DNA of 36,635 bases, from NCBI GenBank assembly GCA_002753505.1, contig PEAG01000035.1, forward strand, positions 1-36,635, read 5' to 3'. The stretch is from Magnetococcales bacterium HCHbin5. GTDB lineage: Bacteria > Pseudomonadota > Magnetococcia > Magnetococcales > Magnetaquicoccaceae. This document shows positions 206 to 17,293 of this stretch, in pieces (within the stretch, counting starts at the first letter, position 1; each line of letters starts with the position of its first letter). The position numbers and the translations under genes are program-made. The notes under the pieces are model-generated. The model was given only the letters and a program-made list of their open reading frames with translations, was not told the DNA's origin and did not search any database.

Positions 206-1411
206 ATGAAGTTGGTTAAGGCTTCGGTGCCATCTGGAAGCCCGGATCTGGTGCAGGAGTTGGAGGCCACCTCCTCCGGTCAGGAGCGGGTTGAGGCAAC
301 CAAAACCAAGGCAGCGGATGTGGCAAAGCCGGTGGCATCCAAGCCGGAGGTTGTCAAGCCGGCGGCAGAGGCCCATCCTGTTGCAGCTGTTTTACCGCCA
401 AAGCCTGAGTTGGCTTCCATGTACCATGCGGGTAAAAAGCCGGAGCCGATTTCGTTGGATTTCAAGTTCACGATACAGATCGGGTCGTTTTTGCAGCAGG
501 AGGGGGCATTGAAGCGGGCCTCGGATCTGCGTCACAAAGGTTATGATGCCTATGTTCTGGAGACACGTGGCAAAAGGGAGCCGTATCGGTTGTGGCAGAC
601 GGTGCGCCTTGGTCGTTTTCAGGATCGCAAGACAGCCCAGGAGGGGTTGGCACTGTACCGGCGGATGGAGCATGATTCAGAGGCGTTTGTGGCGCAGAAT
701 GAGATTGTTGCGGAGGAGGGGGGGAGTGGTGTGCAGCCTAAACCTTCCGCGGCCGCCCCGCCTGCTGCCAATGGTGTGGAGCCGGTGGTCAAGGGGGAAG
801 CGGTTTCTCCTGAGCCTTCTCCAGCCGTAGCCGATGAAGTGGCTCCGGTTTCGGCCCCGGTTCAGCCCGTGGATTCGACTCCGGCGGCGAGTCCGGTGCA
901 GGAGCGGGGGGGAGAGGTGGCGGTTTCGGGGGAGTCGGCGGAGCATTTGTTCCAGCAGTCGCTGGCGTTTCGCAACAATCGGGATGTGGCACAGGAGGAG
1001 CTTCTGTTGCGGCAGGCTTTGCAGGTAGATGCTTCCCATGGTTTGGCTCGCAACCGGTTGGCCCGTATTCTGGTTGAGAGTCATCGGGGCAAGGAGGGTT
1101 TGCAGGTGTTGCAGGCGGCGGTGCAAGGGCGTTCGGCGGCGGTGGTGGCGGCGGAGGATCCCAATTTGGCGGCCTTTCTGGCGGCCTTGTACCAGCGGCA
1201 GGAGTCGCATGAGCAGGCAGTGGCGTATTACCAGAACCTGTTGCAGCAGCATCCGGACAAGGGTATCTGGCGCATGGGAATGGCCATCTCACTGGAAAAA
1301 TTGGGCAAGTCACAGCAGGCGTTGGAGGCCTATCAGGGGGCATTGGCGGATGAGAGTTTGAGTGCCAAATTGCGTGGTTTTGTGCAGACGCGGGTGGATC
1401 AGTTAAAATAA
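2..1411 (+). CDS. SPOR-domain protein with TolA-like Ala/Glu/Lys repeats and TPRs (5' end outside window)
   Basis: The reading frame is open from the first bases, so the gene starts upstream; an internal Met codon at 206 is not a convincing start because the same frame already codes a regular Ala-Glu-Lys-Arg repeat (AEAKAAEEARVA-type units) from base 2. This repeat is expected to form a long alpha helix or coiled coil, as in the TolA stalk. A Pro/Ala/Val-rich linker follows, then a SPOR-like domain at about residues 154-225 of the visible part (starting FTIQIGSF, with a matching second half around RLGRF). After a second Pro/Ala linker come two to three TPR-like helical pairs to the C terminus. 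SPOR domains bind denuded septal peptidoglycan, so a periplasm-spanning, peptidoglycan-binding role is likely. It precedes the first pilus ATPase on the same strand and could anchor the secretion or pilus machine to the wall; that is inference from position. Confidence 0.8.
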   Translation, partial: AEAKAAEEARVAAEAKAAAEARVAKAAEEARVAKAAEEAKVAAEAKAAEEARVAQAAAEAKAAEAVQSMKLVKASVPSGSPDLVQELEATSSGQERVEATKTKAADVAKPVASKPEVVKPAAEAHPVAAVLPPKPELASMYHAGKKPEPISLDFKFTIQIGSFLQQEGALKRASDLRHKGYDAYVLETRGKREPYRLWQTVRLGRFQDRKTAQEGLALYRRMEHDSEAFVAQNEIVAEEGGSGVQPKPSAAAPPAANGVEPVVKGEAVSPEPSPAVADEVAPVSAPVQPVDSTPAASPVQERGGEVAVSGESAEHLFQQSLAFRNNRDVAQEELLLRQALQVDASHGLARNRLARILVESHRGKEGLQVLQAAVQGRSAAVVAAEDPNLAAFLAALYQRQESHEQAVAYYQNLLQQHPDKGIWRMGMAISLEKLGKSQQALEAYQGALADESLSAKLRGFVQTRVDQLK

Positions 1412-1541: not shown

Positions 1542-3242
1542 ATGACGCATGCCCGTCCCCGTCTGGGTGATCGGTTGGTGGAGCAGGGGGAGATCACCCC
1601 GCAGCAACTGCAGATTGCTCTGGCAACCCAGGCGCGTACGGGAGAGCCGTTGTCCCTTGTTTTGGTTCGTCTGGGCATGATGACGGAGTTGCAGTGGCTG
1701 GTCTTTTTTTCGCGTCTGTTGCAGCTGCCGCTGATTGATTTAAAGCAGTACCGCATTGATGGTGGCCTGGCCCGTTTGTTGCCGGAGGGGGTGGCTCGTC
1801 TGCATCAGGCCATTGTGTTGGCGCGGACGGCGCAGGGTCTGCTGGTGGGCATGGTGGACCCCACCGACATTTTTGCGTGTGATGAGCTGGCGCGCCGTTT
1901 GGGTGGGGTGCCTGATTTGGCGTTGGTGAGTGGTTCCCTGTTGTCGGCGGCGTTGGATGTGGTGTACCGGGGGGGAGAGCGGATCCAGGAGCAGGCGACT
2001 GCATTGGATGAGGAGGTGGGGCAGGCGGCTTTCAATCTGGAGGGGATGGCGCAGAGCGATCGGGCAGTGGATGCGCCGGTTGTGCATATTTTGCGTGCCC
2101 TGTTTGAGGATGCGGTGCGTTTGAACGCTTCGGACATCCACATTGAGCCGGATGCGGAGGTGTTGCGTCTGCGGCGGCGGGTGGATGGGTTGTTGCAGGA
2201 GCAGGTGGTGCAGGAGAAGCGTATCGCGCCTGCGCTGGTCTCCAAGCTCAAGCTGATGGCTGGTTTGGAGATCGCCGAGCGGCGTCTGCCGCAGGATGGG
2301 CGGTTTGACATGGAGGTCAAGGGGCGGGTCATCGATGTGCGGCTCTCCACTTTGCCGGTACAGGATGGGGAGTCGGTGGTGTTGCGGTTGTTGGACCGCA
2401 GCAAGGACCATACGGCGTTGCACACCATTCTGGAGCCGGAGCTGTTGCAGCGGTTCCAGAAAATTATTCAGCGGCTGCATGGTTTGGTGTTGGTGACCGG
2501 TCCCACGGGCAGTGGCAAGACGACAACCTTGTATGGGGCGTTGCATACGCTCAACACGCCGGACAAAAAAATAATCACCGTCGAAGATCCGGTGGAGTAT
2601 CGGTTGCCGCGCATCAGTCAGGTTCAAGTCAATCCCCGTATTGGTTTGACCTTTTCCGCTGTGTTGCGCACGGTGTTGCGGCAGGATCCGGACATTATTC
2701 TGGTCGGGGAGATGCGGGATCGGGAGACGGCGGAGATAGCCATTCGGGCGGCTTTGACGGGTCATCTGGTCTTTTCCACCCTGCATACCAACAGTGCGGT
2801 GGGGGCGGCGGTGCGGTTGTTGGAGATGGGGTTGGAGGGGTATGCGGTGGCGGCGGCGGTGCGATGTATTGTGGCGCAGCGGTTGGTGCGGCGGGTTTGT
2901 ACGGGATGTGCAGAGCCGTTCATTCCCACGGCGGCCGAGTTGATGTTGCTGCGTCATTGGGTTGGGGAGCGGGTGGTGCAGTGGGTACGGGGGCGGGGTT
3001 GTGCCGGTTGTCATTTCAGCGGCTTTGCCGGTCGGATGGCGGTGGTTGAGTTGTTGGAAATGCGGGGTGAAGTCGCAGATGCTTTGCGTCGGGGGGAGAT
3101 GGCGGGGTTGATCGGGGCGGCTGAGCGGCAGGAGGGTTATCGGCCGTTGTACCGTTCTGCGATCGAATATGCCGTGCAAGGGCGGACCACGTTGGAGGAG
3201 GTATTGCGGTTGGTTGAGGGGGAGGAGTCGGCTTACGGTTGA
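1542..3242 (+). CDS. GspE/PilB/MshE-family assembly ATPase (first of three)
   Basis: 566 aa, the usual length for a GspE-type hexameric ATPase that powers pilus or type II secretion fibre assembly from the cytoplasmic face of the inner membrane. The N terminus (residues about 1-150, RLGDRLVEQGEITPQQLQ) is a MshEN-type domain, which in MshE homologues can bind c-di-GMP. The catalytic part has Walker A GPTGSGKTTT near residue 320, an Asp box (VEDPVEYR), Walker B DPDIILVGEMRD, a His box with STLHTNSA, and a zinc tetracysteine pair CTGC / CAGC near the C terminus. All key residues are present, so it should be active. It is separated from the main operon by a repeat element and by the oppositely oriented mshM gene. 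Its codon usage is visibly richer in TTG/GTG than that of the second ATPase. Whether it works in extension, retraction or a parallel system cannot be told. Confidence 0.9.
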   Translation: MTHARPRLGDRLVEQGEITPQQLQIALATQARTGEPLSLVLVRLGMMTELQWLVFFSRLLQLPLIDLKQYRIDGGLARLLPEGVARLHQAIVLARTAQGLLVGMVDPTDIFACDELARRLGGVPDLALVSGSLLSAALDVVYRGGERIQEQATALDEEVGQAAFNLEGMAQSDRAVDAPVVHILRALFEDAVRLNASDIHIEPDAEVLRLRRRVDGLLQEQVVQEKRIAPALVSKLKLMAGLEIAERRLPQDGRFDMEVKGRVIDVRLSTLPVQDGESVVLRLLDRSKDHTALHTILEPELLQRFQKIIQRLHGLVLVTGPTGSGKTTTLYGALHTLNTPDKKIITVEDPVEYRLPRISQVQVNPRIGLTFSAVLRTVLRQDPDIILVGEMRDRETAEIAIRAALTGHLVFSTLHTNSAVGAAVRLLEMGLEGYAVAAAVRCIVAQRLVRRVCTGCAEPFIPTAAELMLLRHWVGERVVQWVRGRGCAGCHFSGFAGRMAVVELLEMRGEVADALRRGEMAGLIGAAERQEGYRPLYRSAIEYAVQGRTTLEEVLRLVEGEESAYG

Positions 3243-3728: not shown

Positions 3729-5243
3729 CTATGGTGCCTGCCACAATCCGCGCCGCGCAGAGCGTGCTTCCCGCCTGTCCGCCTGAAACCGCTCCGCCGT
3801 TGTCTCCACCAGACCCTGGCGGACAAGCGCGCGATTCAACAGACTGTTTTCTGCATCCAATATGTCTGCCAGCACATCCTGTCCACCCTCCGGTTCCGGC
3901 AACGCCGCAACCCTGACCTGCTGCTGCATCAATCGACCGATAACCTGATGCACCGCTCGGCCAGCCGGGGAGTCGGCTGCTGGACAATACACATCAGCCA
4001 ACTGAACCGAGTGAACACGGCCCGTGGTCTCCTTGACCGTCAGATGACACCCCTCTGTTACATCAACCAGCTGAGCCTCAAACACCTTGGCATAACGGGG
4101 GGCCACAACCGGTTGTGGCTGCGCCGTTGCCAGGGAGAGCGGAAGCGGCGGAAGCTCCCAATTCACCTCCGAAGCCTCCGGCTCAACCTCCGGCCCCTGC
4201 GAGGCTGTCCGCTGCGTAACCGATACAGCCGACGCCACCGCCCACTCCCCAACGGACCGTGCAACCCGTTGAATGGAGACCACCCAGGGGAGATCCATCA
4301 CCCGGGAAAGGGGGCGGGAGAGAGAGGGGGGGAGCTCCTGGAGCGGCAACCGTGTCGCCACTCCCAAGCCCAGCAGACAGACCAGGGTCAACACCACCCA
4401 CCGAACAGAACGACGATGCGGGCGGGCCCTCGCCCGCTCACTACCCAACACCTCCCGGATGGCCCGCCGGGCAACAACCATGCCGACGCGGGAACGACCG
4501 CCGATATAGGCCGCCAACAACGCCCGGTCACACATCTGATTGATCAAACGGGGAATTCCCTGGGCCGCCCGGTGGATCAACCAGAGGGCAGTCACACTGA
4601 ACAGCGGCTGCACACTGCCAGCCACCGCCAACCGGTGGCGCACAAAGGCCCGCGTCTCGGCCGCCGTCAACGGGGTCAAATGGTAGCGGGCGGTGATCCG
4701 TTGACTGAACGGTCGCAACTCCGACCGGTTGAGCAGAGTCGTCAACTCGGGTTGGCCAATGAGAACAATTTGTAACAGCTTGCGCTTGTCCGTCTCCAGA
4801 TTGCTGAGCAGGCGCACCTGCTCCAGCAGGGCCGGGGTCAAATTTTGTACCTCATCCACAATCAGCACGGTGGTCTTGTTGTGGGCATAATTGGCCAGCA
4901 ATCGCTGGTTCAGGGCATCAAAAAGATTTTTGAAACTGGCCGCCTCCGGGTAGGAGATCCCCAGATCGTCACAGATGGAGGCGATCAACTCCAGCGGAGA
5001 GAGGGTGGGATTCAGAATGAGAGCAACCTCAACCGAGTTGGGCAGTTGCTGCATCAGACAGCGGGAGATTGTCGTCTTGCCGGTGCCCACTTCGCCTGTC
5101 AACAAGATAAAACCGCTACTGCCCCGAATCCCGTAGAGCAGATGGGCCAGGGCAGCCTGATGCTGGCGTCCCAGGAACAAAAATCGCGGATCGGGGGTGA
5201 TCGCAAAAGGGGGTTCCTGGAGGTTGAAAAATTTTTGGTACAT
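3729..5243 (-). CDS. mshM: MshM/ExeA (GspA)-like AAA+ ATPase with C-terminal SNase-like domain
   Basis: 504 aa from the ATG at 5243, which opens the typical ExeA start MYQKFFNLQEPPFAITPDP; the frame extends further upstream but that part has no family likeness. The AAA domain has Walker A GEVGTGKTT (residues 50-58), Walker B VLIVDE (126-131) and a sensor-type region IGQPEL. A single membrane helix sits at about 281-297, so the ATPase is cytoplasmic and the tail periplasmic. ExeA/GspA proteins help secretins assemble across peptidoglycan and MshM is the pilus version. In place of the usual peptidoglycan-binding domain, residues about 384-502 resemble a staphylococcal-nuclease fold (ALVRQGLVE and ARSARRGLWQ motifs). 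The catalytic Arg/Asp/Glu positions appear lost, so this is probably a binding module. The gene is divergent from mshL, the secretin gene it would serve. Confidence 0.82.
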   Translation of the reverse strand: MYQKFFNLQEPPFAITPDPRFLFLGRQHQAALAHLLYGIRGSSGFILLTGEVGTGKTTISRCLMQQLPNSVEVALILNPTLSPLELIASICDDLGISYPEAASFKNLFDALNQRLLANYAHNKTTVLIVDEVQNLTPALLEQVRLLSNLETDKRKLLQIVLIGQPELTTLLNRSELRPFSQRITARYHLTPLTAAETRAFVRHRLAVAGSVQPLFSVTALWLIHRAAQGIPRLINQMCDRALLAAYIGGRSRVGMVVARRAIREVLGSERARARPHRRSVRWVVLTLVCLLGLGVATRLPLQELPPSLSRPLSRVMDLPWVVSIQRVARSVGEWAVASAVSVTQRTASQGPEVEPEASEVNWELPPLPLSLATAQPQPVVAPRYAKVFEAQLVDVTEGCHLTVKETTGRVHSVQLADVYCPAADSPAGRAVHQVIGRLMQQQVRVAALPEPEGGQDVLADILDAENSLLNRALVRQGLVETTAERFQADRREARSARRGLWQAP

Positions 5244-5508: not shown

Positions 5509-7374
5509 ATGTTGAAGTCATATAAATTTTTGTTAAAGCGTGACCGGATCCTCCCGGTCAGCCTGCTGCTGGTCAGCCTGCTGCTGGTCGGCTGCGCCGG
5601 GGCGGTCAAGCCACCCGCGCCCGCAGGGGGCGACATCAACAGCGTCAATGGTCGGTCATTGGAAGCTGTGCCGGGGGTGGGTAACGACCCGGCCAACCCG
5701 CCGGCTGCCACGCCTGCCCCTCCCCGTGCAGCGGATCCGGTTGCCCAAACCATTCCGGAAGCCCCCATCCCCCCCATTGCTGGCAGTGCACCCTTTTTGC
5801 TGCCGGAGGGGGAGGCCAGACCCCCCCTGGCCACCTATACGGTCTCCATGATCGATGCCCCCCTGCGGGAGGTGCTCTTTTCGTTGGCCAGGGATGCGGA
5901 GCTGAATGTGGATATCTATCCCGGCATCGACGATAAAATTACCATCAATGCCGTCAACCAGACCCTGCCCGCCATTCTGGACCGTATTGCCGATCAGAGC
6001 CGCTTGCAGTATCAGATCAAGGAGGGTGTCCTGCTGATCACCCCGGACAAACCGTTTCGGCGCAGCTATCCGTTAAACTATCTGCAAACCAAACGGGAAT
6101 CCAAATCCGGCATGTCCGTTTCCACCCAGATGAGCTCCAGCGAAGGCCGGAACGATGGCAGCAACGGCTCCAACGTTACCCTGACCGCTTCCGACTCCGC
6201 CGCCGACTTTTGGGAAAATCTGGTGGCCAATATCACCCACATGGTGGACCCGGCTGAAAACAGGGAGGGCAAACAGCCCGAGGCCAACGCCGCCAGGGCG
6301 GCCGCCCGTGGCGAGGAGAGTGCGGCCACCAAAGACCCGGCGGCCAATCCCTACGTGGTTTTGAACCGTGCCACCGGCGTCGTCAATGTGTTGGCAACCC
6401 ATCGTCAACACAAACAGGTGCAAGCCTTCATCGACCGGGTGATGCGCATCGCCATGCGCCAGGTCTTTATTGAGGCAACGGTGGTTTCGGTGGAACTCTC
6501 CGACGCCTATCAGGCGGGCGTGGATTGGAGCCTGTTGGCCTCCACAGTGGGTACCGCGGATCCCAACAACAGCCAGTCCATGATCAATCAGCGCATGACC
6601 GATGGGCCGCACCTCTCCTTGAAGCTGAACCGGACCAAGGTGCCTTTTCTGAGCGGTGTGTTGGGGGAGCATGACCTGACGGCCACGCTGCGCCTGCTCT
6701 CCCAGTTTGGCAATGCCAAGGTGGTTTCAACCCCCAAGGTGACGGTACTCAACAATCAGACGGCCGTGCTGCGGGTGACCACCAATCAGGTCTATTTCGA
6801 GATCAAAGTGACACCGGCGACGGTGCAAACCTCGACGGGGGGAGCGCAAACCCTCATTCCAGGCACCACCCAAACCCTGGTGCGCACCGCACCCGTTGGC
6901 TTTATCATGCAGGTCACGCCGCAAATCGATGCCAACAACATGATCACCATGAACATACGGCCCACCCTGCAACGCATCTCGCAATGGGTGGACAATCCAG
7001 ACCCCAATATGCGCATCAACCAGACCACCGGAGCCTCTTTCACCCCGCCCCAGATACCGGTGATCCAGGTACAGGAGATGGACTCGGTGCTGCGGGTGAG
7101 CAGCGGACAGGTGGCGGTCATGGGTGGCCTGATGCAGGACGAGTCCAAGAACGGCATGGATGGGATTCCCTATCTGTCCAAGGTGCCCGTTCTCGGTTCC
7201 CTGTTCAGTTATCGCAGCGAAGGCAATATCAAGAAAGAGCTGGTTATTTTCCTGCGGCCTGTCATCCTCAATGAGACCGACGAACTGCGCACAATAGGTA
7301 CCCGGGAGCGGCATCTGTTCAACGATCGCCCCTTTGACAACTATTGGGGCCAAACCGGAGGGGTGATTCCGTGA
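5509..7374 (+). CDS. mshL: MshL-type secretin lipoprotein
   Basis: 621 aa. An N-terminal lipoprotein signal (basic start, hydrophobic stretch, lipobox ending LLVGC) targets it to the outer membrane. A Pro-rich stretch follows, then a short N-domain (about 100-185, PLREVLFSLARDAELNVDI) typical of secretin STN/N0 folds, a poorly conserved linker with Gly/Ser, and secretin_N-like and secretin domains to the end. The C-terminal secretin signature is clear: VAVMGGLMQDE, then GIPYLSKVPVLGSLFSYRSE and the strand KKELVIFLRPVIL. It forms the multimeric outer-membrane channel for the fibre. The signal peptide is coded by a duplicated 15-bp unit (CAGCCTGCTGCTGGT). It is the first gene of the operon and its stop overlaps the start of the next gene by GTGA. 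Confidence 0.93.
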   Translation: MLKSYKFLLKRDRILPVSLLLVSLLLVGCAGAVKPPAPAGGDINSVNGRSLEAVPGVGNDPANPPAATPAPPRAADPVAQTIPEAPIPPIAGSAPFLLPEGEARPPLATYTVSMIDAPLREVLFSLARDAELNVDIYPGIDDKITINAVNQTLPAILDRIADQSRLQYQIKEGVLLITPDKPFRRSYPLNYLQTKRESKSGMSVSTQMSSSEGRNDGSNGSNVTLTASDSAADFWENLVANITHMVDPAENREGKQPEANAARAAARGEESAATKDPAANPYVVLNRATGVVNVLATHRQHKQVQAFIDRVMRIAMRQVFIEATVVSVELSDAYQAGVDWSLLASTVGTADPNNSQSMINQRMTDGPHLSLKLNRTKVPFLSGVLGEHDLTATLRLLSQFGNAKVVSTPKVTVLNNQTAVLRVTTNQVYFEIKVTPATVQTSTGGAQTLIPGTTQTLVRTAPVGFIMQVTPQIDANNMITMNIRPTLQRISQWVDNPDPNMRINQTTGASFTPPQIPVIQVQEMDSVLRVSSGQVAVMGGLMQDESKNGMDGIPYLSKVPVLGSLFSYRSEGNIKKELVIFLRPVILNETDELRTIGTRERHLFNDRPFDNYWGQTGGVIP

Positions 7375-9134
7375 GTCAACTGCTGTCGTCTTTGCAATCC
7401 GCTGAAAAACACCGCCACGAACCCCGTTCAAGTTCGGATGAGGCGTGGGATTTTGCTTCCGACAGCCAGGGCAGCCAACCGCAAAAGAGCCAACCATCGC
7501 CGGTTGCAGCCGCCACAAGCCGCGAGCCAACCGTCAACAGCCTGTTTCAGGAGGATGCAGAGGAGGGGGAGCAGCAGAGTGGCATCGGTTCCACCGTGCG
7601 ACCACTGCCAACCGCTCCGGCCCCCCCTTCCCCCGCGACCACTGCTGCCACCGAGGGGATCGCCCCGCTGAAAAATTTATCGGCCCAATTGACGGCCAAT
7701 TCGGATAGACCGATGGCATGGCTGCCGGGGGGGGATGCCCGGCAGATGCCCATTGCCGCCGCCATCCGGCCACCACCGGTGGACCGCACCGGATCGCCAG
7801 GTCGCCACCGCCAGCCGGAGGATGAGGAGCGGTTCCAGGAGACCATCCGGCTGTTGATGCCTGTCAAAGGCGATGCAAGAGCGGCACGCCACTATTCGCC
7901 CGCAGCGATGGGTGGCGGGGTGCTGTTGTTGGTTGGGGTGGCCGCGGCAGGTTATCTGCTGCACGACTACGTGGATACTGCAGAGGAGGGGGTCAATACA
8001 GGCATTCCGACCGAACCGAGAAGCCAGCCGCCATTATCCCCCCCCGCAGCGACGCTCCACCATAAGCCTGTCCAGCCGGCGGTCGAGCGGCCTGCCGCCG
8101 CTGCGCCGGCTCTCCAACCCGTCTCTCCCGCAACGACAGCAGCGACTGAAATCCTGGTAGCCGCGCTGCCTGCCGCCCCCCCGGCACCGCCGCCGGCGGT
8201 TGTGGTTGCTCCATCGGCTCCGGCAGTCGTTCCGGCGGCTCCCGTCGTCGCCGTTCCGCCGCCGACCGCCTTGCCGGTCGCTGCTCCAACCGTGGCAGCC
8301 CTGCTGCCATCCGCTTCAGCCATGGCCGCACCGGCCTCTCCGGCGGCGGCCCAACCGCCGCCATCGCAACCATCCAGCCCCCAACCGTTGCCGGGGGAAG
8401 CAGAAAAGCCGCCTGCGCCGCCGCCCGCTGCGCACCGACAGGAGCGACCAGCCGAGCCGGGGCTCGAGCCGGGGGAGGGGGGTGCTGCCAAGGCGGTTGC
8501 GTCACCCCCGCCTCCCCGCAGAGTTGCTCCCCAAAGTCCCGCCAAGGGTTTGCTGGACAAGGCGTACCGGGCGTTTCGTCTCGGGTCGTTGGAGGAGGCC
8601 GCCGGGCTGTTTCATAAAGCCCTGAAGGTTGACCCCCACAACCATCAGGCGATGATTGGCGTTGCCTCCGTGAACATGCGGCGTGCCAACATGGAGGAGG
8701 CGCGTTTCTGGTATCGGCGGGTGTTGCGGGAAGATCCCAACAACACGCTTGCCCTGACTGCACTGCTGGGGTTGGAGGGTACCGGGGATGTGGCAGAGGC
8801 GGAGAGTCGGCTGAAAAATCTGCTGCATGACCATCCGGAGGCCAGCCATCTCCATTTTGCCCTGGGCAATGTGTATGCGGCACAGGGGCGTTGGAGCTTG
8901 GCCTATGGGGCCTATGCGGATGCCCACCATCTCGGCCAGGAGCGCAATCCCGAGGTGCTGCTTAATCTGGCGGCCAGTCTGGACCATCTGCAACGGTGGT
9001 CCGAAGCCCTGCTCTATTACAACATGGCCCTGGCCATTGCGGAGACGGATCTGGAGCTGCATGTCCATTTTGATGTAGAGGCGGTACGCCAGCGCATCCG
9101 GTCATTGTATGCCATCAGCAGGCAACCCCAATGA
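7371..9134 (+). CDS. mshN: MshN-like membrane-anchored TPR protein
   Basis: 587 aa from the GTG at 7371, which overlaps the mshL stop and has GGAGGGG 6 nt upstream; an in-frame TTG at 7344 is less likely. The first 180 residues are polar and low complexity, followed by one transmembrane helix (GVLLLVGVAAAGYLLHDYV), a long Pro/Ala/Val-rich linker in the periplasm, and four to five TPRs from about residue 390 (LLDKAYRAFRLGSLEEAAGLFHKAL). This bitopic plus TPR layout between the secretin and the MshE gene is that of MshN in MSHA loci, where it is thought to connect inner and outer membrane parts. The Pro/Ala linker is unusually long. The stop overlaps the next start (ATGA). Confidence 0.8.
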   Translation: MSQLLSSLQSAEKHRHEPRSSSDEAWDFASDSQGSQPQKSQPSPVAAATSREPTVNSLFQEDAEEGEQQSGIGSTVRPLPTAPAPPSPATTAATEGIAPLKNLSAQLTANSDRPMAWLPGGDARQMPIAAAIRPPPVDRTGSPGRHRQPEDEERFQETIRLLMPVKGDARAARHYSPAAMGGGVLLLVGVAAAGYLLHDYVDTAEEGVNTGIPTEPRSQPPLSPPAATLHHKPVQPAVERPAAAAPALQPVSPATTAATEILVAALPAAPPAPPPAVVVAPSAPAVVPAAPVVAVPPPTALPVAAPTVAALLPSASAMAAPASPAAAQPPPSQPSSPQPLPGEAEKPPAPPPAAHRQERPAEPGLEPGEGGAAKAVASPPPPRRVAPQSPAKGLLDKAYRAFRLGSLEEAAGLFHKALKVDPHNHQAMIGVASVNMRRANMEEARFWYRRVLREDPNNTLALTALLGLEGTGDVAEAESRLKNLLHDHPEASHLHFALGNVYAAQGRWSLAYGAYADAHHLGQERNPEVLLNLAASLDHLQRWSEALLYYNMALAIAETDLELHVHFDVEAVRQRIRSLYAISRQPQ

Positions 9135-10849
9135 CAGAGCCGGTTGCCGACAAATCCCGTTCCCGGCTGGGAGAGCTGTTGCTGAAGGGGGGGATCATCA
9201 CCGAAGATTATCTCGATATTGCCCTGCTGGAGCAAAAAAAGACCCAGGAGCGTCTGGGCCACATCTTTGTCAAGTTGGGATTGGTGCCGGAAGCCACCAT
9301 GCGGGATCTGCTGGGGTCGGTGTTGCAGGAGGAGAGCATCGACCTGGATGCGGAGGGCATCAATCCTGCGGTTGTCCAGTTGGTGCCCAAAAAGCTGGTG
9401 GATCGCTACTGTTTTATCCCGGTGGCGTGGGATGAGGCCAACAACACCCTGACCGTGGCCATGCCCGACAGCTCGGATATCGGGGTGCTGGACAAGATTC
9501 GGGCCAAGCTGAAACCGGGTGTGCAGATCAAAACCCTGTTGGCCGGCGAGAGCGAAATTGGCCGCGCCATCGATAAATATTATGGTTTTGAACTTTCGCT
9601 GGATGGCATCATGCGGGAGTTGGAGACCGGAACGGTGGATCTGGAAAGCCTCTCCGCCGTGGGGTCCGGGGAGTTCAGCCACCCCATGGTGCGGCTGGTG
9701 GATGCCCTGTTGGCCGATGCCGTCCGCCAGGAGGCTTCGGACATCCATGTGGAACCGGAGGCCGGTTTTGTGCGGGTTCGTTACCGGATCGATGGCGTGC
9801 TGACCGAGATACGCAGCATGCACAAGGATTATCTTTCCGGTCTGGTGGTGCGCATCAAAATTTTGAGCGGGATGAATATTGCGGAGACCAGGGCACCCCA
9901 GGATGGCCGCTTTTCCATCTCCATCTCCCGCCGTGTCATCGATTTCCGGGTCTCCTCCATGCCCACCACCCACGGGGAAAACATGGTGTTGCGGGTATTG
10001 GACCGCAACAAGGGCTTTTTGCCGCTGGAACAACTGGGACTGGCGGATGAGACCCTGCTGACCTTGCTGCAGGTGTTGGCGCGACCGGAAGGGATCGTGC
10101 TGGTGACCGGCCCGACCGGGAGTGGCAAAACCACCACCCTCTACTCCATGATTAATTTTTTGAATACCAAAGATGTCAACATCATGACCCTGGAGGATCC
10201 GGTCGAGTATCCGATGGGGATTGTCCGTCAGACTCCGGTCAATCCGGCGGCCAATTTGGGCTTTTCGGAGGGGATTCGTTCCATCCTGCGGCAGGATCCG
10301 GACATTATTCTGGTGGGGGAGATCCGCGATCAGGATACGGCGCAGATGGCGTTGCGGGCGGCGATGACCGGGCACAAGGTGTTCAGCACCTTGCACACCA
10401 ACTCGGCCCTGGGGGCCTTTCCCCGTCTGCTGGATATTGGCATCAATGCGGAAATTCTGGCTGGCAATGTCAGCGGGGTCGTGGCGCAGCGACTGGTGCG
10501 AAAATTATGCAAAGTGTGCAGGCGTCCCGGTCGGCCCACCGCCCCGGAGCGGCGTGTGCTGGAGCTGGAACCGGAGACGGAGTGTACCATTTATCGGCCT
10601 GTCGGTTGTGAGGCCTGTGCCGGCGTCGGTTACAAGGGGCGCACGGCGGTGATGGAGGTGGTGCGCGTGGATGATGACTTTGATGATTTGATTGCCCATC
10701 ATGCCACCAAAGGGGAATTTATCAAATTGGCCGCCCAGAAAGGGTTCCGGACCCTGGCCCAGGATGGCAAACGCCTTGTGTTGCAAGGGATTGTCAGTGT
10801 GGATGAAATTTCGCGCGTGCTGGACTTGTCCGACCATGTTGTTGTATAG
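9131..10849 (+). CDS. mshE: MshE-type pilus assembly ATPase (second of three)
   Basis: 572 aa, full length for the family. An N-terminal MshEN domain (about residues 10-150, LGELLLKGGIITEDYLDIALLE) precedes the GspE core with Walker A GPTGSGKTTT near residue 326, Asp box LEDPVEYP, Walker B DPDIILVGEIRD, His box STLHTNSA and a CKVC / CEAC zinc motif. All catalytic residues are intact. Its position directly after mshN and before mshG matches MSHA gene order, so this is the best candidate for the principal extension ATPase. It is clearly the closest relative of the ATPase half of the next gene, down to the stretch around YYGFELSLDGIMRELETG, which points to a tandem duplication. Confidence 0.92.
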   Translation: MTEPVADKSRSRLGELLLKGGIITEDYLDIALLEQKKTQERLGHIFVKLGLVPEATMRDLLGSVLQEESIDLDAEGINPAVVQLVPKKLVDRYCFIPVAWDEANNTLTVAMPDSSDIGVLDKIRAKLKPGVQIKTLLAGESEIGRAIDKYYGFELSLDGIMRELETGTVDLESLSAVGSGEFSHPMVRLVDALLADAVRQEASDIHVEPEAGFVRVRYRIDGVLTEIRSMHKDYLSGLVVRIKILSGMNIAETRAPQDGRFSISISRRVIDFRVSSMPTTHGENMVLRVLDRNKGFLPLEQLGLADETLLTLLQVLARPEGIVLVTGPTGSGKTTTLYSMINFLNTKDVNIMTLEDPVEYPMGIVRQTPVNPAANLGFSEGIRSILRQDPDIILVGEIRDQDTAQMALRAAMTGHKVFSTLHTNSALGAFPRLLDIGINAEILAGNVSGVVAQRLVRKLCKVCRRPGRPTAPERRVLELEPETECTIYRPVGCEACAGVGYKGRTAVMEVVRVDDDFDDLIAHHATKGEFIKLAAQKGFRTLAQDGKRLVLQGIVSVDEISRVLDLSDHVVV

Positions 10850-10885
10850 TGAACCGTCCAGTCGGGCTGTTTTTTTGTTTTTTTG

Positions 10886-10936
10886 ACAGTGGCAGGGGTT
10901 TGGGAAGCGTGCCACTCCCCAGACCCCTGCCACTGT
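10886..10936. repeat. intergenic inverted repeat between mshE and the fusion gene
   Basis: Arms of about 20 nt (10886-10905 and 10917-10936) pair with one G-T wobble and one mismatch. A run of T residues (10869-10884) lies before the hairpin and none follows it, so it is not a normal rightward terminator. The sequence GGCAGGGGTTTGGG / CCCCAGACCCCTGCC is like the ends of the large repeat elements, where the equivalent is GCAGGGGTCCGGGG. I take it as a minimal member of that family. It interrupts an otherwise overlapping operon and could lower or separate expression of the downstream genes. Confidence 0.7.
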
Positions 10937-11023
10937 TCTGTTGTTCCCCAGGCCCCTGACAATCCTGCAAACCATGGCAAGTGCGGCCATCCCGGAAACG
11001 CCCTTTTGCTCGGATACAGCCAT

Positions 11024-13852
11024 ATGAACGCTGCTGTTTTGAATGGGATTCTTCTGTGCAGCCCATGGTTGCCCCTCCAATGGATGGCGCAGTTGCAACG
11101 CCATAGCCGACTGCTCATTCTGCGGGACAAGGAGGTGACCACCCATCTTTGGCTCGGCAATCGCTTTGGTGCCGGCAGCCATTTTCCCCAAACCCCGGAG
11201 GGACGCGAGGCGTTCGACCATTTTCTGGCAGGACAACCCACGGCTGGCGCGGTCTACCTGCTGGTGGACATCAGCGAAGAGGAGTTGCGGGCTGAAACCA
11301 TCCCCCGCCTGCGCTGGCACAACCGGGGCGGACTCATCGCAGGACGGCTGGGCCGCATGTTTCGCCAGACCCCCTACCGGCGGGCCGATTTTCAAGGCTA
11401 TCAGGCGGGCCATGTGGAACGGGTGCTGTTTTCCGCCCTGACCGCCCCTGCACTGGTCGAGCCGTGGCTGGATCTGCTGCGGCAACGACGCCTGCCTGTC
11501 GCCGGTCTCTGGTCGGTGGCCCTGTTGAGCCGTGCCCTGCTGCGCCATGCCAGCCGCCATTCGGCCAATGCGCTCTGGATCTGGCTGACCCAGGCCGGAC
11601 AGCGACAAACCTATTTTCACCAGGGACGCACCCTGGTCAGTCGGCTGACCTCCCAGCCGGGAGTCTCCCCGGAACAGACAGCCGCCGCCATCCATGCCGA
11701 AACCCACCGGACCCGACGCTACCTGAACATGCTGCGGCTGTTGCGGCCGGAGATTCCTCTGGATGTCTATGTTGTCTGCGGTCCCGCATTGGCGGATGCC
11801 CTGCGCCGCCACCCCACGCCGACCCCCGCCTGTCCGATGCAGCCGGTGTTGCTGGAGGGGCTGGCGGTCCGGTTGGGGCTGACCGCCGCCCAGCAGCGGT
11901 TTGGGGCCGATTTTGCCCTCCCCGCCGGCGAGAGCCCGGATAACGCGGAGCTGCTGATTGCCGAGCATCTGCTGTTGAGTCCGCCTGCCAACCACTATGC
12001 CCCTCCGGAGCTGTTGCAAGAGCAGTGGTTGCCCTGGCTGCGCAGAGGGTGGCAGCGGCTCTTGCAGCCGGCTCCTGCCGTCGCTCCCGCCGCTGCACCG
12101 GATCGGGAGAGGCTGCCAGCGGAACAGGAGGCGCAACCCCTGCCGATGGCACAACCGGTGCGGCGTATCGGGGAGCTGCTGCTGGAAAAAAAGGCGATCA
12201 GTCGCCACCAGTTGGAAATCGCCATCGCCGAGCAGAAAAAACAGGGGCAACCCCTCGGCAAAGTATTGACCCACCTGGGATTTGTCTCCGAAGAGGCGAT
12301 GCGGGATCTGTTGGGCGAGGCGTTGGAACAGGAGACCGTCGACCTCAGCCTGCGGACGCCCGATGCCGAGGCGATCCGCCACGTGCCGAAAGGGTTTGCC
12401 CGCCGTTACAGCCTGCTGCCCCTGGCGTGGCAGCCGGAGAGTGCCCAGTTGACCGTGGCGATGAGCAACACCTTCAACATGGCGGTGCTGGACAAACTCC
12501 AGAGTCTGTTGCCGAAAGGGGTCGTCTTGCGCCCCTTGATGGCGAGCGAAAGCGAACTGTTGGCCGCCATCGACCGCTTTTACGGCTTTGATCTGTCGGT
12601 GGATGGTATTCTGCGGGAGATTGAAACCGGCGAGGTGGAGCTGGAGGCGCAGCCACAGGCGAATGAACGGTTGGACCATCCGATGGTGCGATTGGTCGAT
12701 GCCCTGTTGACCGATGCGATTCGTCGTGAAGCCTCGGACATGCATATCAACCCGATGGCAAGTTTTACCCAGATTCGCTATCGGATCGACGGTGTACTTC
12801 AAGATGCGCGCATTTTAAACCGGAGCTTTTTTTCCGGCCTGTGCGTGCGGATCAAGGTGATGGGGGGGCTGGACATTGCCGAAACCCGCACCCCCCAGGA
12901 TGGCCATTTCAGCCGCGTGTTGGCCAATGTCCCGGTTGATTTTCGCCTGTCCACCCAGCCCACCGTCCATGGGGAAAATATTGTGCTGCGCATCCTGAAC
13001 CGCAGCAAAGGGTTGCTGGGCCTGCACGAGCTGGGCCTGACAGAGGAGAACAGCCGCCTGGTGCAACAGGTGATGGGGCGACCCCATGGCATCATTCTGG
13101 TCAGCGGTCCCACCGGCTGCGGCAAGACCACCACCCTGTACTCCATGCTGAGTACCCTGAATGCCAAAAAAAGCAATGTGATGACCCTGGAAGATCCGGT
13201 GGAATATCTGCTGGATGCCATTCTGCAGACCTCTGTCAACAGGACGGTCGAGCTGGATTTTTCCTCCGGTGTCCGCTCCATTCTGCGCCAGGATCCCGAT
13301 ATTATTCTGGTGGGGGAGATCCGTGACCTGGAGACGGCACAGATGGCCTTGCGGGCCGCCATGACCGGCCATCAGGTCTACAGCACCCTGCACGCCAACT
13401 CTGCCGTCGCCGCCATCTCCCGCCTGCTCAACATTGGCCTGCGGGCCGATATGCTGGCGGGCAACATGATCGGGGTGTTGGCGCAACGCCTGATCCGTAA
13501 ACTGTGTCTGCACTGTCGGCAGCCCCGGCCACCCACCGCCGAGGAGCAGGCATGGCTTGGTCCGGCGACGACCGGGCCGATCTATGGAGCGGTAGGCTGC
13601 CCGGAATGCCATGGCACCGGTTACAAGGGGCGTCTCTGCGTCATGGAGGGGGTGATGATCGATGATGAGTTTGATGATCTGATCGCCAGCAATGCCCCAC
13701 AAAGCGCGTATCGCCGCCTGGTCCAACAAAAAGGTCTACTGACCCTGCAGGATTTTGCCCGCCGCCGGGTACTGGATGGGACAACGGCCCTGGAAGAGGT
13801 GGCCAGGGTGTTTGGCCTGCTGCCCGTACAGGAGTCCCATCCCCATGCCTAA
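11024..13852 (+). CDS. fusion of a MshI/PilM/GspL-like cytoplasmic domain with a MshE-type ATPase (third ATPase)
   Basis: 942 aa from the ATG at 11024; an alternative ATG at 11084 would give 922 aa and neither has a strong ribosome binding site. An in-frame TTG at 10883 lies inside the hairpin and is rejected. Residues about 20-360 are paralogous to the N-terminal half of the protein encoded at 15061: shared landmarks include YLLVDISEEEL/YLLVDMIEEEL, GRLGRMFRQTPY/GRSSRMFRNTPF, FHQGRTLVSR/FLHNGRMLVSR and PLDVYVVC/PLDLFVLC. After a Pro/Ala linker comes a complete MshEN plus GspE ATPase: Walker A GPTGCGKTTT (near 695, Ser replaced by Cys), Asp box, Walker B DPDIILVGEIRD, STLHANSA and a CLHC / CPEC zinc motif. 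In type II secretion, GspL's actin-like domain binds GspE, so this fusion joins the two partners. I do not know of this architecture; it may be lineage specific. Confidence 0.88.
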   Translation: MNAAVLNGILLCSPWLPLQWMAQLQRHSRLLILRDKEVTTHLWLGNRFGAGSHFPQTPEGREAFDHFLAGQPTAGAVYLLVDISEEELRAETIPRLRWHNRGGLIAGRLGRMFRQTPYRRADFQGYQAGHVERVLFSALTAPALVEPWLDLLRQRRLPVAGLWSVALLSRALLRHASRHSANALWIWLTQAGQRQTYFHQGRTLVSRLTSQPGVSPEQTAAAIHAETHRTRRYLNMLRLLRPEIPLDVYVVCGPALADALRRHPTPTPACPMQPVLLEGLAVRLGLTAAQQRFGADFALPAGESPDNAELLIAEHLLLSPPANHYAPPELLQEQWLPWLRRGWQRLLQPAPAVAPAAAPDRERLPAEQEAQPLPMAQPVRRIGELLLEKKAISRHQLEIAIAEQKKQGQPLGKVLTHLGFVSEEAMRDLLGEALEQETVDLSLRTPDAEAIRHVPKGFARRYSLLPLAWQPESAQLTVAMSNTFNMAVLDKLQSLLPKGVVLRPLMASESELLAAIDRFYGFDLSVDGILREIETGEVELEAQPQANERLDHPMVRLVDALLTDAIRREASDMHINPMASFTQIRYRIDGVLQDARILNRSFFSGLCVRIKVMGGLDIAETRTPQDGHFSRVLANVPVDFRLSTQPTVHGENIVLRILNRSKGLLGLHELGLTEENSRLVQQVMGRPHGIILVSGPTGCGKTTTLYSMLSTLNAKKSNVMTLEDPVEYLLDAILQTSVNRTVELDFSSGVRSILRQDPDIILVGEIRDLETAQMALRAAMTGHQVYSTLHANSAVAAISRLLNIGLRADMLAGNMIGVLAQRLIRKLCLHCRQPRPPTAEEQAWLGPATTGPIYGAVGCPECHGTGYKGRLCVMEGVMIDDEFDDLIASNAPQSAYRRLVQQKGLLTLQDFARRRVLDGTTALEEVARVFGLLPVQESHPHA

Positions 13853-15047
13853 ATACCGCTACAAGGCGACTGACCAGGAGGGGACTATTCATCACGGTGT
13901 GGTGGAGGTGGCCAACGTGGATGCGTTGGAGCTGCGCATGGATCGCATGGGGTTGATGCTGATCAGCCACAAATGCCTGCGTTCCGCCCCGCTGCTGCTG
14001 TTCAACAGCAGCCCGGTCACTCGGCAGGATCTGATTGTTTTCTGCTTTGATATGGAACAGATGGCCACGGCTGGCGTCCCCATGCTGGAGGGGTTGAAGG
14101 GGCTGCGGGACGGCTTGCGCAAACCCCGCTTTCGCGCCATGGTCTCCACCCTGATCGAGGATATCGAGGCCGGCAAACAGCTGTCCGAGGCCATGCAGGC
14201 CCAACCCAGGGTTTTTGATGAGGTTTTCACCCAGTTGGTACTGATGGGGGAGCGGACCGGCTCCCTCAGTCAGGTATTCCAGGATATGACCGAAAATTTA
14301 AAATGGGAGGATGAGTTGATCTCCCAGGTCAAGAAGGTGATGATGTACCCCATGGTTGTGGCTGTGGTGGTGACGGCACTGATCTTTTTCCTGATGATCT
14401 ATCTGGTGCCCAAGTTGGTGGGATTTATTGCGGAGCTGGGGGGAGAGCTGCCGCTGCACACCCGGGCCCTGATTGCAACCTCCGGTTTTATCGCCGAGTA
14501 TTGGTATCTGCTGCTGCTGGGGCCGCTGCTTGTCTGGGCCGGTATCCGGTTGGGTTGCCTCTGGCATCTGGGGTTTCACCGCCTGGTGGACCGTTTAAAA
14601 TTGCGCATCTGGCTGTTTGGTCCCCTTGCCCATAAAATTATTCTGGTCCGTTTTACCAACGCCTTCGCCTTGATGTATAAATCCGGGGTCTCCGTCCTGG
14701 AATGTCTCAAAATTTCCGAAGGGCTGTCCAATAATCTGGAGCTGCGGGACTCCTTTCAGCGGGCGCGGCAGCTGGTCTCCGAGGGCAGGGAGCTTTCCAG
14801 CAGTTTTCAGGAGATCAACCTGTTTCCGCCCCTGCTGTTGCGCATCTTCAAGGTGGGGGAGACCACCGGCAATCTGGATACCTCGTTGCGTAGCATCAGC
14901 TATTTTTTTAACCGTGAAATCAAGGAGACAGTGGGCAGGTTGGAAATTTTGATCGGCCCGGTCATGACCATTTTTCTGGGGAGCATGATCGGCTGGGTGA
15001 TTCTTTCGGTTCTGGGACCGATCTACGACCTGATCAGTACCCTCTGA
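13845..15047 (+). CDS. mshG: MshG/PilC/GspF-type inner-membrane platform protein
   Basis: 400 aa from the ATG at 13845 (MPKYRYKATDQEG, a typical GspF start), with AGGAG 10 nt upstream and an 8-nt overlap with the previous gene. Two T2SSF domains are visible: the first around residues 60-190 (LIVFCFDMEQMATAGVPMLEGL) and the second around 265-390 (RFTNAFALMYKSGVSVLECL). Each is followed by hydrophobic helices, giving three membrane segments (about 165-190, 215-240, 370-395), as in the family. It is the polytopic platform on which the ATPase acts to add pilin subunits from the inner membrane. It sits directly after the fused ATPase and before the MshI-like gene, so it should form the core complex with them. 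Confidence 0.92.
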   Translation: MPKYRYKATDQEGTIHHGVVEVANVDALELRMDRMGLMLISHKCLRSAPLLLFNSSPVTRQDLIVFCFDMEQMATAGVPMLEGLKGLRDGLRKPRFRAMVSTLIEDIEAGKQLSEAMQAQPRVFDEVFTQLVLMGERTGSLSQVFQDMTENLKWEDELISQVKKVMMYPMVVAVVVTALIFFLMIYLVPKLVGFIAELGGELPLHTRALIATSGFIAEYWYLLLLGPLLVWAGIRLGCLWHLGFHRLVDRLKLRIWLFGPLAHKIILVRFTNAFALMYKSGVSVLECLKISEGLSNNLELRDSFQRARQLVSEGRELSSSFQEINLFPPLLLRIFKVGETTGNLDTSLRSISYFFNREIKETVGRLEILIGPVMTIFLGSMIGWVILSVLGPIYDLISTL

Positions 15048-15060
15048 CCGCAGCAGAGCC

Positions 15061-16668
15061 ATGGCCACCGACTCCTCCCTGTTTATTTTTCTTTCCGACT
15101 ATATCGTCACAATTTATGCCTGGCGGGATGGCCAGTTCAGCCAGCAGAACCGTTTTGAAAACTCTCCGGCGGGACAGGAGGCCTTCGGCCATCACTGGCA
15201 ACAGACCACCCCTTCGGAGCCGGTCTATCTGCTGGTTGACATGATCGAGGAGGAGCTTCACAACGAAATGGTGCCCCGCCTGTTCGGCGGCAATCGCCAA
15301 AAAATGTTGACAGGCCGCAGCAGTCGCATGTTTCGCAACACGCCGTTTTGTTACAACCACTTGTATGGCAGGGTGAGCGGCGAGGAGCAGAAAGAGCAGG
15401 TGTTGTTCATCGGCCTGACCGAACCGGAAAAGTTGCTGGCCTGGTTGACCATTCTGCACGGTTGTCAGGCCCGGCTGGCGGGTGTGGTTTCGGTCCCTGT
15501 TTTATGTCAGGAGCTGTTCAAAAAAATGGCCCCGGGGAACCAGGAGGCCCTTTTGGTCAGCCCCAATGCCGGGGGATTGCGACAAATTTTTTTGCACAAC
15601 GGCCGCATGCTGGTGAGCCGCTTTTCCGCCGTCCATCTGGAGGGGGAGCGGGCGGTGCGGGAGACGATCCGGCAGGAGGTGGTACGGATGCGCGGCTATC
15701 TGGAGTCGCTGCATCTGCTTTCACTCCACACCCCGCTGGACCTTTTTGTGCTTTGCCCCAAGGCGTTGCATCAGCTGCTGAGCAGCGAAACGGAGCAGGT
15801 CGCCCACCTCAACATTCATCCGGTGGATGCCGAGGGGTTGGCCCGTCGCCTGGGCTTCGGGACCAACCTGGGACAGAACGAGCAGCTGGAGCCGTTTTTT
15901 TGCGGGTTTTTGCTCAAACAACGCCAGCGTAACCACTATGCCAGAGCCGCCGATACCCGCATTTACCGCGCCCTCCGGTTGCGGGCCCGGTTGGGAACGG
16001 CCAGCCTGAGCCTGTTCCTGGTGGGGGTGCTGGTGGCGGGCGGGCTTTTTTGGGAAGGGTGGCGTATCCAGGATAGCCGACCGGAGTTGCTGCGCCAGGT
16101 GGCGCAGGCGCAGCAGGCCTGGCAAGAGGTGGCGGTGGCATCTGGCACAGGGGAGAAGGGGGGCACCCCGTCGGTGGGGGAGGGCAATGTGGTCGCGGCG
16201 GTACGGACCCTGGACGCCTTGCGGCAAAATGCCGCCACGCCCCAGCCCCTGTTGATTGCCATCAGTCAGGTGTTGAACTGGCATTCGGATATCTGGCTGG
16301 TGGGTTTGCAGTGGTTTGCCGGCCTGCCTGACCGGGAGGGTGAGTGGCTTCAGACAACGGGGCTTCCTGCGGCGGAGGCCAGGGCACTGTTGCGTCGTGA
16401 AGGTCAGAAAGCGGGATTGCACTATGTGCGTTTGCAGGGGCAGTTTTATCCCTTCAGCGGCCAGATGATGGTGGCCAACAGGCGCATCCAGGATTTTGCC
16501 GATGCTCTGCGCGGGTTGCCCGGCGTGGCGGATGTCGCGGTACTCTCCAGGCCGGAGGATCCGACCCAGACGGCGGTTCTGGACAGCCACAGCACACTGG
16601 CTTCCCCAACGGAGGCACCGTTTGCGTTGTGGATGGCGGTAGAGGCGGGGAGATACCGCCATGAGTGA
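15061..16668 (+). CDS. MshI/GspL-like protein: cytoplasmic actin-like domain, one TM, PilN-like periplasmic part
   Basis: 535 aa. Residues 1-300 form a cytoplasmic domain that is paralogous to the N-terminal domain of the fused ATPase encoded two genes upstream, and by position corresponds to MshI/PilM or the actin-like half of GspL. A single transmembrane helix lies at about 310-332 (LSLFLVGVLVAGGLFWEG). A coiled stretch rich in Gln/Ala follows and then a ferredoxin-like PilN/GspL-type periplasmic domain. A bitopic protein combining PilM and PilN roles is the GspL layout. It would recruit the ATPase and link it to the PilO-like protein encoded next, whose start overlaps its stop by 8 nt (16661-16668). 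The start at 15061 is chosen because it is the first Met and matches the paralogue's N terminus; its ribosome binding site is weak. Confidence 0.75.
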   Translation: MATDSSLFIFLSDYIVTIYAWRDGQFSQQNRFENSPAGQEAFGHHWQQTTPSEPVYLLVDMIEEELHNEMVPRLFGGNRQKMLTGRSSRMFRNTPFCYNHLYGRVSGEEQKEQVLFIGLTEPEKLLAWLTILHGCQARLAGVVSVPVLCQELFKKMAPGNQEALLVSPNAGGLRQIFLHNGRMLVSRFSAVHLEGERAVRETIRQEVVRMRGYLESLHLLSLHTPLDLFVLCPKALHQLLSSETEQVAHLNIHPVDAEGLARRLGFGTNLGQNEQLEPFFCGFLLKQRQRNHYARAADTRIYRALRLRARLGTASLSLFLVGVLVAGGLFWEGWRIQDSRPELLRQVAQAQQAWQEVAVASGTGEKGGTPSVGEGNVVAAVRTLDALRQNAATPQPLLIAISQVLNWHSDIWLVGLQWFAGLPDREGEWLQTTGLPAAEARALLRREGQKAGLHYVRLQGQFYPFSGQMMVANRRIQDFADALRGLPGVADVAVLSRPEDPTQTAVLDSHSTLASPTEAPFALWMAVEAGRYRHE

Positions 16669-17293
16669 GAACACGTGGCCACTGTTGCGCAAACAGGTGA
16701 TTATATTCTGCATTGTATGGGTGCAGACCGCCGGTTTTGTCGGAGCCGCTCTCTATTACCGGGACGAGATGGCGCAGCAGGTGGCGCAGATGCGGCAGCA
16801 GTTGCAGTCGTTGGAAAACAAAAAGCGGCTCCAGCAGGAGGAAAATCAGCGACAAAAGCAGTACCACACCCGGGTGCGTTTTTACCAGGATGCCGGTCTG
16901 TTTGAGCCGGAAGAGCCCCGCTTGCGGTGGGTGGAACAGATCATGATGGTGGAGAAGGCGTTAAAACTGCCGGTTCCGATACGGTTCAAGCTGGAGGTGC
17001 ATAAGCCGTTCATCCCGACTCTACCGGCCGTGCGCCCCCTGGAGGGTCTGTTCAGCAGCCGCATGGAGCTGATCCTCGGCTTGCTGCATGAGGGGGATCT
17101 GCTGGATTTTTTTCAGCGGCTTGCAAAGAGTAACTATGCGCTTTACGATATAAAAACCTGTACACTGGAGCGGCGGGACACCCCGGTCGGCGGCCACCAC
17201 AAGCCGGAGGTGGATCACCATTTGACGGCCACCTGTCAGCTGGAGTGGTATTGGTATGGCCCGACCAGCAGAGCGGGCAAGGGGGGGATGTGA
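16661..17293 (+). CDS. PilO/MshJ/GspM-like alignment-complex protein
   Basis: 210 aa. It has a short cytoplasmic N terminus, one transmembrane helix (IIFCIVWVQTAGFVGAALYY, about residues 14-33), a coiled coil of about 45 residues rich in Gln/Arg/Glu, and a small periplasmic domain. This is the layout of PilO, GspM and MshJ, which dimerise with the PilN/GspL-type partner. Sequence similarity is weak, so the call rests on topology plus its place directly after the MshI/PilN-like gene, with overlapping ends. An LLHEGDLLDFFQRL stretch near the C-terminal third resembles the helix of PilO-type ferredoxin folds. Confidence 0.65.
   Translation: MSENTWPLLRKQVIIFCIVWVQTAGFVGAALYYRDEMAQQVAQMRQQLQSLENKKRLQQEENQRQKQYHTRVRFYQDAGLFEPEEPRLRWVEQIMMVEKALKLPVPIRFKLEVHKPFIPTLPAVRPLEGLFSSRMELILGLLHEGDLLDFFQRLAKSNYALYDIKTCTLERRDTPVGGHHKPEVDHHLTATCQLEWYWYGPTSRAGKGGM

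Follow-up and report, generated by a model that had tools for sequence, protein, structure and literature searches.

Gene content of the locus

The window, by which we mean the whole stretch of DNA analysed (36,635 nucleotides, contig PEAG01000035.1 of assembly GCA_002753505.1), comes from Magnetococcales bacterium HCHbin5, whose draft genome totals 4.19 Mb in 200 contigs. The gene of interest is a single open reading frame that lies on the minus strand (the plus-strand reading of the same interval is interrupted by a stop) and encodes an ATPase with an atypical C-terminal tail next to a divergently transcribed secretin gene (Table 1).

Table 1 Features of the fused ATPase gene and of the surrounding pilus genes.
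Feature	Position	Strand	Evidence or remark
SPOR and TPR protein	206-1411	(+)	SPOR domain 38.1 bits
PilB/GspE-type ATPase	1542-3242		
Fused ExeA/MshM-type ATPase and SNase-like C-terminal domain, 504 aa	3729..5243	(-)	ORF and translation; fusion shared with G005 contig C85
Predicted SNase-fold domain without the catalytic residues (residues 383-504)	3732..4097	(-)	AlphaFold2, fold comparison, Pfam, position counts
Cys420, SNase position T41	3984..3986	(-)	Position counts
Cys399, SNase position D21	4047..4049	(-)	Position counts
Linker, residues 302-382, contains fusion junction	4098..4340	(-)	Homology limits versus unfused G001
Single predicted transmembrane segment, residues 283-301	4341..4397	(-)	Hydropathy, mean 2.07 over 19 residues
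AAA+ core, residues 42-171	4731..5120	(-)	Pfam AAA_22 96.3 bits, cut-off 27
Walker A GEVGTGKTT, residues 50-58	inside 4731..5120	(-)	Motif position
MshL-type secretin, divergently transcribed, proposed client	5509..7374	(+)	TIGR02519 235.2 bits, just below cut-off 250.2
TPR protein	7344-9134		
Second PilB/MshE-type ATPase	9131-10849		
Third PilB/MshE-type ATPase, fused to MshI-like region	10883-13852	(+)	
GspF/PilC	13755-15047		
ORF taken as MshI-like	15061-16668		
ORF taken as MshK-like	17245-17850	(+)	Unknown family
Prepilin-like ORF	19282-20631	(+)	

Architecturally, the protein follows GspA/ExeA in having an AAA+ ATPase domain and then one transmembrane segment. The MshM/ExeA-type assignment made in the first-pass annotation holds, with a strong AAA_22 match and 268.9 bits against TIGR03015 (below the cut-off of 324.5). 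One further 19-residue hydropathy window, of 1.67, lies within the AAA+ region, and the Arg and Lys residues around the transmembrane segment number six in the 15 residues before it versus two in the 15 after; by topology, the SNase-like part should face the oxidising periplasm. The peptidoglycan-binding end usual for such ATPases, already noted as missing, is indeed absent: the 25 top-ranking of the 33 Pfam families that match the window protein at E up to 1 include neither a C39-like nor a peptidoglycan-binding domain, and the protein has no Pfam match to T2SSB/HR.

Because the gene is surrounded by secretin, motor ATPase, GspF/PilC, MshI-like and prepilin-like genes, we regard the setting as an MSHA-type pilus locus, the MshI-like label of its ORF being our own presumption. 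The locus contains a second fusion, in which about 340 N-terminal residues of the third PilB/MshE-type ATPase share 34% identity with the MshI-like ORF, and the remainder shares 53% with the second ATPase of this type. All three PilB/MshE-type motor ATPases carry the c-di-GMP-binding MshE-type N-terminal motif (NCBIfam NF053729), and one of the prepilin-like ORFs (the last in Table 1) contains a stretch of well over 100 residues composed almost wholly of Ser and Ala. The protein with SPOR and TPR domains is a possible peptidoglycan anchor of the pilus system. Further downstream, a protein of unknown family that we presume to be MshK-like is conserved across 22 of the 48 class genomes; its structural model (mean pLDDT 75.7, core confident) has no significant PDB match, and its weak matches include PilP and the GspC HR domain (3oss_C, rank 13, probability 0.38). 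It might hold an HR domain. These two proteins could share wall or secretin binding.

Predicted fold and active site of the tail

A degenerate staphylococcal nuclease (SNase)-like tail had been proposed together with the motifs VQLADVYCPA, QDVLADIL, ALVRQGLVE and ARSARRGLWQ, all of which are found in the translation. By sequence alone this likeness appears beyond chance yet weak, with Pfam SNase (PF00565) scoring 21.4 bits against the isolated tail and 17.6 bits against the full-length protein (cut-off 21), and a search of the tail sequence against PDB chains found no SNase. The best match of that search, to viral gp41 constructs (E 0.54), was discarded as chance. It is fold prediction that decides the question: an AlphaFold2 model of the tail, computed from an 11-row alignment, reached a pLDDT of 90.7 and a pTM of 0.84, and matched 166 solved chains in Foldseek at E<=0.001, the best 50 of which are staphylococcal nuclease variants and SND1/Tudor-SN chains. 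VIA-align gave a Z of 16.9 and an rmsd of 2.0 Å over 119 residues for 5kru, the best solved match, and Z of 16.2-16.7 for the SN domains of SND1 (Tudor-SN), and the 50 structural-alignment rows listed are all SNase or SND1/P100, with no SPOR or HR folds among them. The tail is thus predicted to be an SNase fold, and the structural comparison on which the first proposal had been staked bears it out rather than revealing an unrelated fold.

At the positions that we take to correspond to the SNase active site, the window protein has replaced D21 by Cys, R35 by Gln, D40 by Tyr, T41 by Cys, E43 by Ala and R87 by Asp, and so retains none of the catalytic set D21, R35, D40, E43 and R87. Across the family, D21 is kept in 0/12 rows with a letter there, D40 in 0/13 and R87 in 0/12; Arg persists at R35 in 4/13 relatives and Glu at E43 in 1/13. 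Among ordinary SNases from the genomes searched, 30/30 keep all five catalytic residues and 0/30 have Cys at T41. With its nuclease residues lost, the tail is, to judge from these positions, catalytically dead.

The two new cysteines are shared by the family: Cys stands at D21 in 12/12 rows with a letter there and at T41 in 13/13 (duplicate rows L005 and L006 dropped), counts that are partly circular because family rows were defined by Cys at either position. Grouping proteins by their GspB-type N-terminus instead gives a check independent of that definition, and all seven intact proteins of this group have exactly two cysteines each, both within the domain; the window protein likewise has exactly two downstream of its transmembrane segment, Cys399 and Cys420. 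Both D21 and T41 are among the residues around the Ca2+ site of staphylococcal nuclease. Since the two cysteines occupy Ca2+-site positions in a part expected to face the oxidising periplasm, and since they are the only ones in the seven intact GspB-type proteins, the dead active site probably contains a disulfide.

Origin of the tail in a GspB-like partner

Relatives have a longer version of this ATPase (578-823 aa in nine complete Magnetococcia cases). The three that were scanned all have a PG_binding_1-type end (28.7 bits in G005 contig C231, 26.7 in G002 and 22.8 in G042; cut-off 23); G042 and G005 C231 also show weak GspA_C39-like matches. Directly downstream of this ATPase, usually within about 20 bases, lies a separate GspB/ExeB-like gene, the product of which starts MSxxLxxL, crosses the membrane once near residue 40 and ends, after a linker, in the SNase-like domain. 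This N-terminus, the single transmembrane segment and adjacency to gspA occur together in six unfused relatives, and a seventh (G041), whose neighbouring gene is not seen, has the N-terminus and the transmembrane segment. The same start is matched by MSYILDALNK, the N-terminus of T2SSB-type GspB in three proteins from outside the class (L035, L036 and L037). At E up to 0.5, T2SSB gave no match to the GspB-like proteins of three relatives.

We studied 16 ATPase loci taken from the best ATPase matches, more than 100 weaker matches and locus L039 being left out. Among the 13 Magnetococcia loci (12 plus the window), an SNase-type gene follows the ATPase in seven, including one that is cut within the domain (G037 C145); two have the ATPase and the SNase-type domain fused (the window and G005 C85), two are cut by contig ends (G005 C231 and G025) and two have neither arrangement (G026 and G022). 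At the homologous loci outside the class, a T2SSB/HR GspB follows the ATPase in 4/4 cases (G051, G052, G057 and G058; Pfam 57-76 bits). Since relatives encode the tail on a separate GspB-like gene after a full-length ATPase, we read the window gene as a GspA-GspB fusion, and the tail, as gene order and homology point to it, is the domain of the operon partner. The first-pass annotation, right about the ATPase and its dead SNase fold, had missed both this origin and the conserved cysteine pair.

The limits of the fusion can be drawn against the unfused G001, the ATPase frame of which is broken by a run of N. Homology of the window ATPase to G001 extends to residue 378, and tail residues 304 to 504 align with the G001 GspB-like protein; the junction thus lies in the linker, with the C39-like and peptidoglycan-binding parts of GspA and the N-terminus of GspB missing. 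The MSxxLxxL start is accordingly absent from the fused window protein.

A search for the same fusion, as had been suggested, found it in one other assembly: in contig C85 of the genus mate G005, a single frame spans the ATPase, the transmembrane segment, the linker and the beginning of the domain, matching window residues 1-408 collinearly. Both the window and C85 thus encode a GspA ATPase and a periplasmic GspB part in one polypeptide, the GspB part being SNase-type and not HR. The C85 frame runs into a G-rich repeat and stops where the contig ends, and contig C134 opens with a similar repeat and carries the remaining domain. This G-rich tandem repeat within the SNase-like domain (the end of L025, which is C85, and the start of L026, which is C134) is where the assembly breaks, and would add a glycine-rich loop to the domain if read in frame.

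Evolutionarily, the two fused ATPases are sisters (100/99) in the ATPase tree, and the unfused G001, which has the divergent mshL at the same site, falls next to them (88/84); the divergent pair of mshL and ATPase is also present in G005 C85. The simplest history is a single fusion event within the genus.

Distribution of the SNase-like domain

The SNase-like domains form one clade of single origin, as in a tree of 42 domains computed without the six catalytic columns (and without the partial L033 row) the 12 family members fall on one side of a 95/91 branch. A profile search of 48 class genomes found 11 places at E<=4.1e-37 and a divergent member in G047 at 3.6e-23, with ordinary SNases of these genomes scoring 4.4e-20 and weaker, and two further pieces of the domain cut by contig ends. 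Members occur in 11 of the 48 genomes altogether and are missing from three genus mates (G003, G004 and G006). Outside the class, no member was recognised in 398 genomes of the phylum (class members included), in 78 of the class of G051 or in 274 of the class of G061, these samples overlapping and scoring being capped, in the 398- and 274-genome searches, at the first 10 or 15 candidates from each genome; the best non-class candidate in the phylum, at 4.1e-17, is an ordinary SNase. A search of genome contigs for further relatives gave two loci only (the G005 contig and a gammaproteobacterial ATPase at 33% identity), and a plasmid collection gave no match. Among the genomes searched, the domain thus appears confined to Magnetococcia.

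The canonical T2SSB domain occurs in 17 of the 48 class genomes at E<=0.001 and exceeds the cut-off in eight, and the genome of the window has none at E<=0.001. No genome shares the SNase-type domain (11/48) with an over-cut-off T2SSB (8/48), a separation that is not significant (P=0.10), and at the weaker threshold one genome (G025) has both.

Possible functions of the fused protein

According to the cited passages of PMC4098917, PMC6532946 and PMC9239104, GspA-GspB pairs assemble and anchor secretins, with ExeA binding peptidoglycan, ExeB binding the N0/N1 domains of ExeD and the HR domain of OutB binding the N0 domain of OutD. As a guess, the earlier suggestion of a new secretin- or wall-binding module is reasonable, given that the HR domain, which the SNase-like domain would replace, is what GspB proteins use to bind secretins (PMC9239104, PMC4098917).

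On balance, we favour a protein in which a GspA/ExeA (MshM)-type ATPase has been naturally fused to a Magnetococcia-specific GspB-like domain and which probably acts as an assembly and anchoring factor for the adjacent MshL-type secretin. The dead SNase-fold domain would stand where other GspB proteins carry the secretin-binding HR domain, and by its gene position and architecture it should do the job of GspB. Across the single transmembrane segment, the cytoplasmic AAA+ ATPase would act on the SNase-like domain in the periplasm, and this domain may dock on secretin N-domains or on another envelope partner; a disulfide between the two former active-site cysteines would rigidify the dead site, and the AAA+ domain would drive or time secretin assembly. 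Secretin docking, the disulfide and ATP-driven control are all steps that we infer, and the gene neighbourhood would support a secretin role for the fused protein. Several relatives (G002, G042, G035, G037 and G047) have prepilin genes after the GspB-like gene and no mshL seen nearby, which makes a different pilus secretin a possible client, and a second secretin dock would be redundant if the MshK-like protein at the locus does hold an HR domain. We also counted the presence of T2SSB elsewhere in the class, the genus mates without the domain and the marginal SNase sequence match against the secretin-factor model. More tentatively, a redox-locked pseudonuclease could have replaced the HR dock, with the D21/T41 disulfide in place and the dead face docking the MSHA-type secretin, and could then have been fused to the AAA+ ATPase, coupling ATP hydrolysis to secretin assembly without a peptidoglycan-binding domain.

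The main uncertainty is the partner of the domain: secretin, wall or DNA. We think it unlikely that the SNase-like domain serves to bind peptidoglycan, polysaccharide or DNA instead of docking on a secretin, taking over the wall anchoring of PG_binding_1 in the fusion or holding DNA during uptake, although the fused genes do lack the peptidoglycan-binding domain that relatives retain, and the passage cited from PMC9239104 has OutB as an example of a GspB protein that binds peptidoglycan. Unfused relatives have both PG_binding_1-type and SNase-like domains, which means that the latter did not originate as a substitute for wall binding, and the protein with SPOR and TPR domains could provide that function at this locus. 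SNase folds have an OB-type core capable of binding nucleic acid, which speaks for a hold on DNA, but the SNase residues that hold DNA and Ca2+ are lost.

Decay is a still less probable account, in which the fusion is a remnant and the domain functionless in the fused protein; the loss of several domains from this protein and the G-rich repeat inside the G005 domain would fit it, but the window keeps both cysteines and the core motifs, its domain is 52-54% identical to that of G005, and the frames are open in both. An unusual nuclease that has kept its activity is very improbable, as the SNase fold and the Arg and Glu kept at R35 and E43 in a few relatives are set against D21, D40 and R87 being lost from every family row with a letter there and all five catalytic residues from the window. 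We give equally little credence to an assembly artefact joining two genes: the window does come from a 200-contig draft and the G005 contigs do break inside the domain, but C85 independently has the fusion in one frame, the fused ATPases are sisters, and the window's genome holds no second copy of the domain.

Comparison with known systems

GspAB fusions as such are already known, in Vibrio vulnificus (EpsAB) and other gammaproteobacteria, as is a GspA without the periplasmic C39/peptidoglycan-binding region, in Alteromonas, and the periplasmic HR domain is described as common to GspB homologs, with E. coli K-12 and its close relatives as the exception (all from the cited part of PMC9239104). 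In the open-licence literature we found no description of an SNase-type GspB, nor an earlier one of a GspA-GspB fusion with a pseudonuclease GspB module, and the word 'nuclease' is absent from the main text of PMC9239104. An unrelated dead SNase fold at the position of GspB would demonstrate that the GspA-GspB secretin assembly pathway can exchange its docking module, a proposal that a small soluble domain with two cysteines makes directly testable, and the case is a warning against annotating such genes as nucleases.

Compared with the EpsAB-type fusion, the window protein has an SNase fold instead of HR as its GspB part, is without the C39-like and peptidoglycan-binding parts of GspA, and adjoins an MshL-type secretin gene. 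With the ExeA-ExeB pair of Aeromonas hydrophila, and GspA-GspB pairs generally, it shares the AAA+ ATPase and transmembrane segment, to which its relatives add a PG_binding_1-type domain and an adjacent GspB-like gene; the partner's HR domain is here replaced by an SNase-like one, and in the window the genes are fused. The Alteromonas-type GspA resembles the window protein in having no periplasmic C39/peptidoglycan-binding region, but its GspB is a separate, longer protein. MshM of MSHA loci is likewise an ExeA-like ATPase beside MshL-, MshE-, MshG- and MshI-type genes, whereas the window gene is divergently transcribed and has an SNase-like C-terminus. Finally, the tail shares its predicted fold with staphylococcal nuclease (SNase, PF00565) and the SN domains of SND1, and differs from both in having lost the catalytic residues, in carrying Cys at D21 and T41, and in being membrane-anchored in a secretion and pilus setting.
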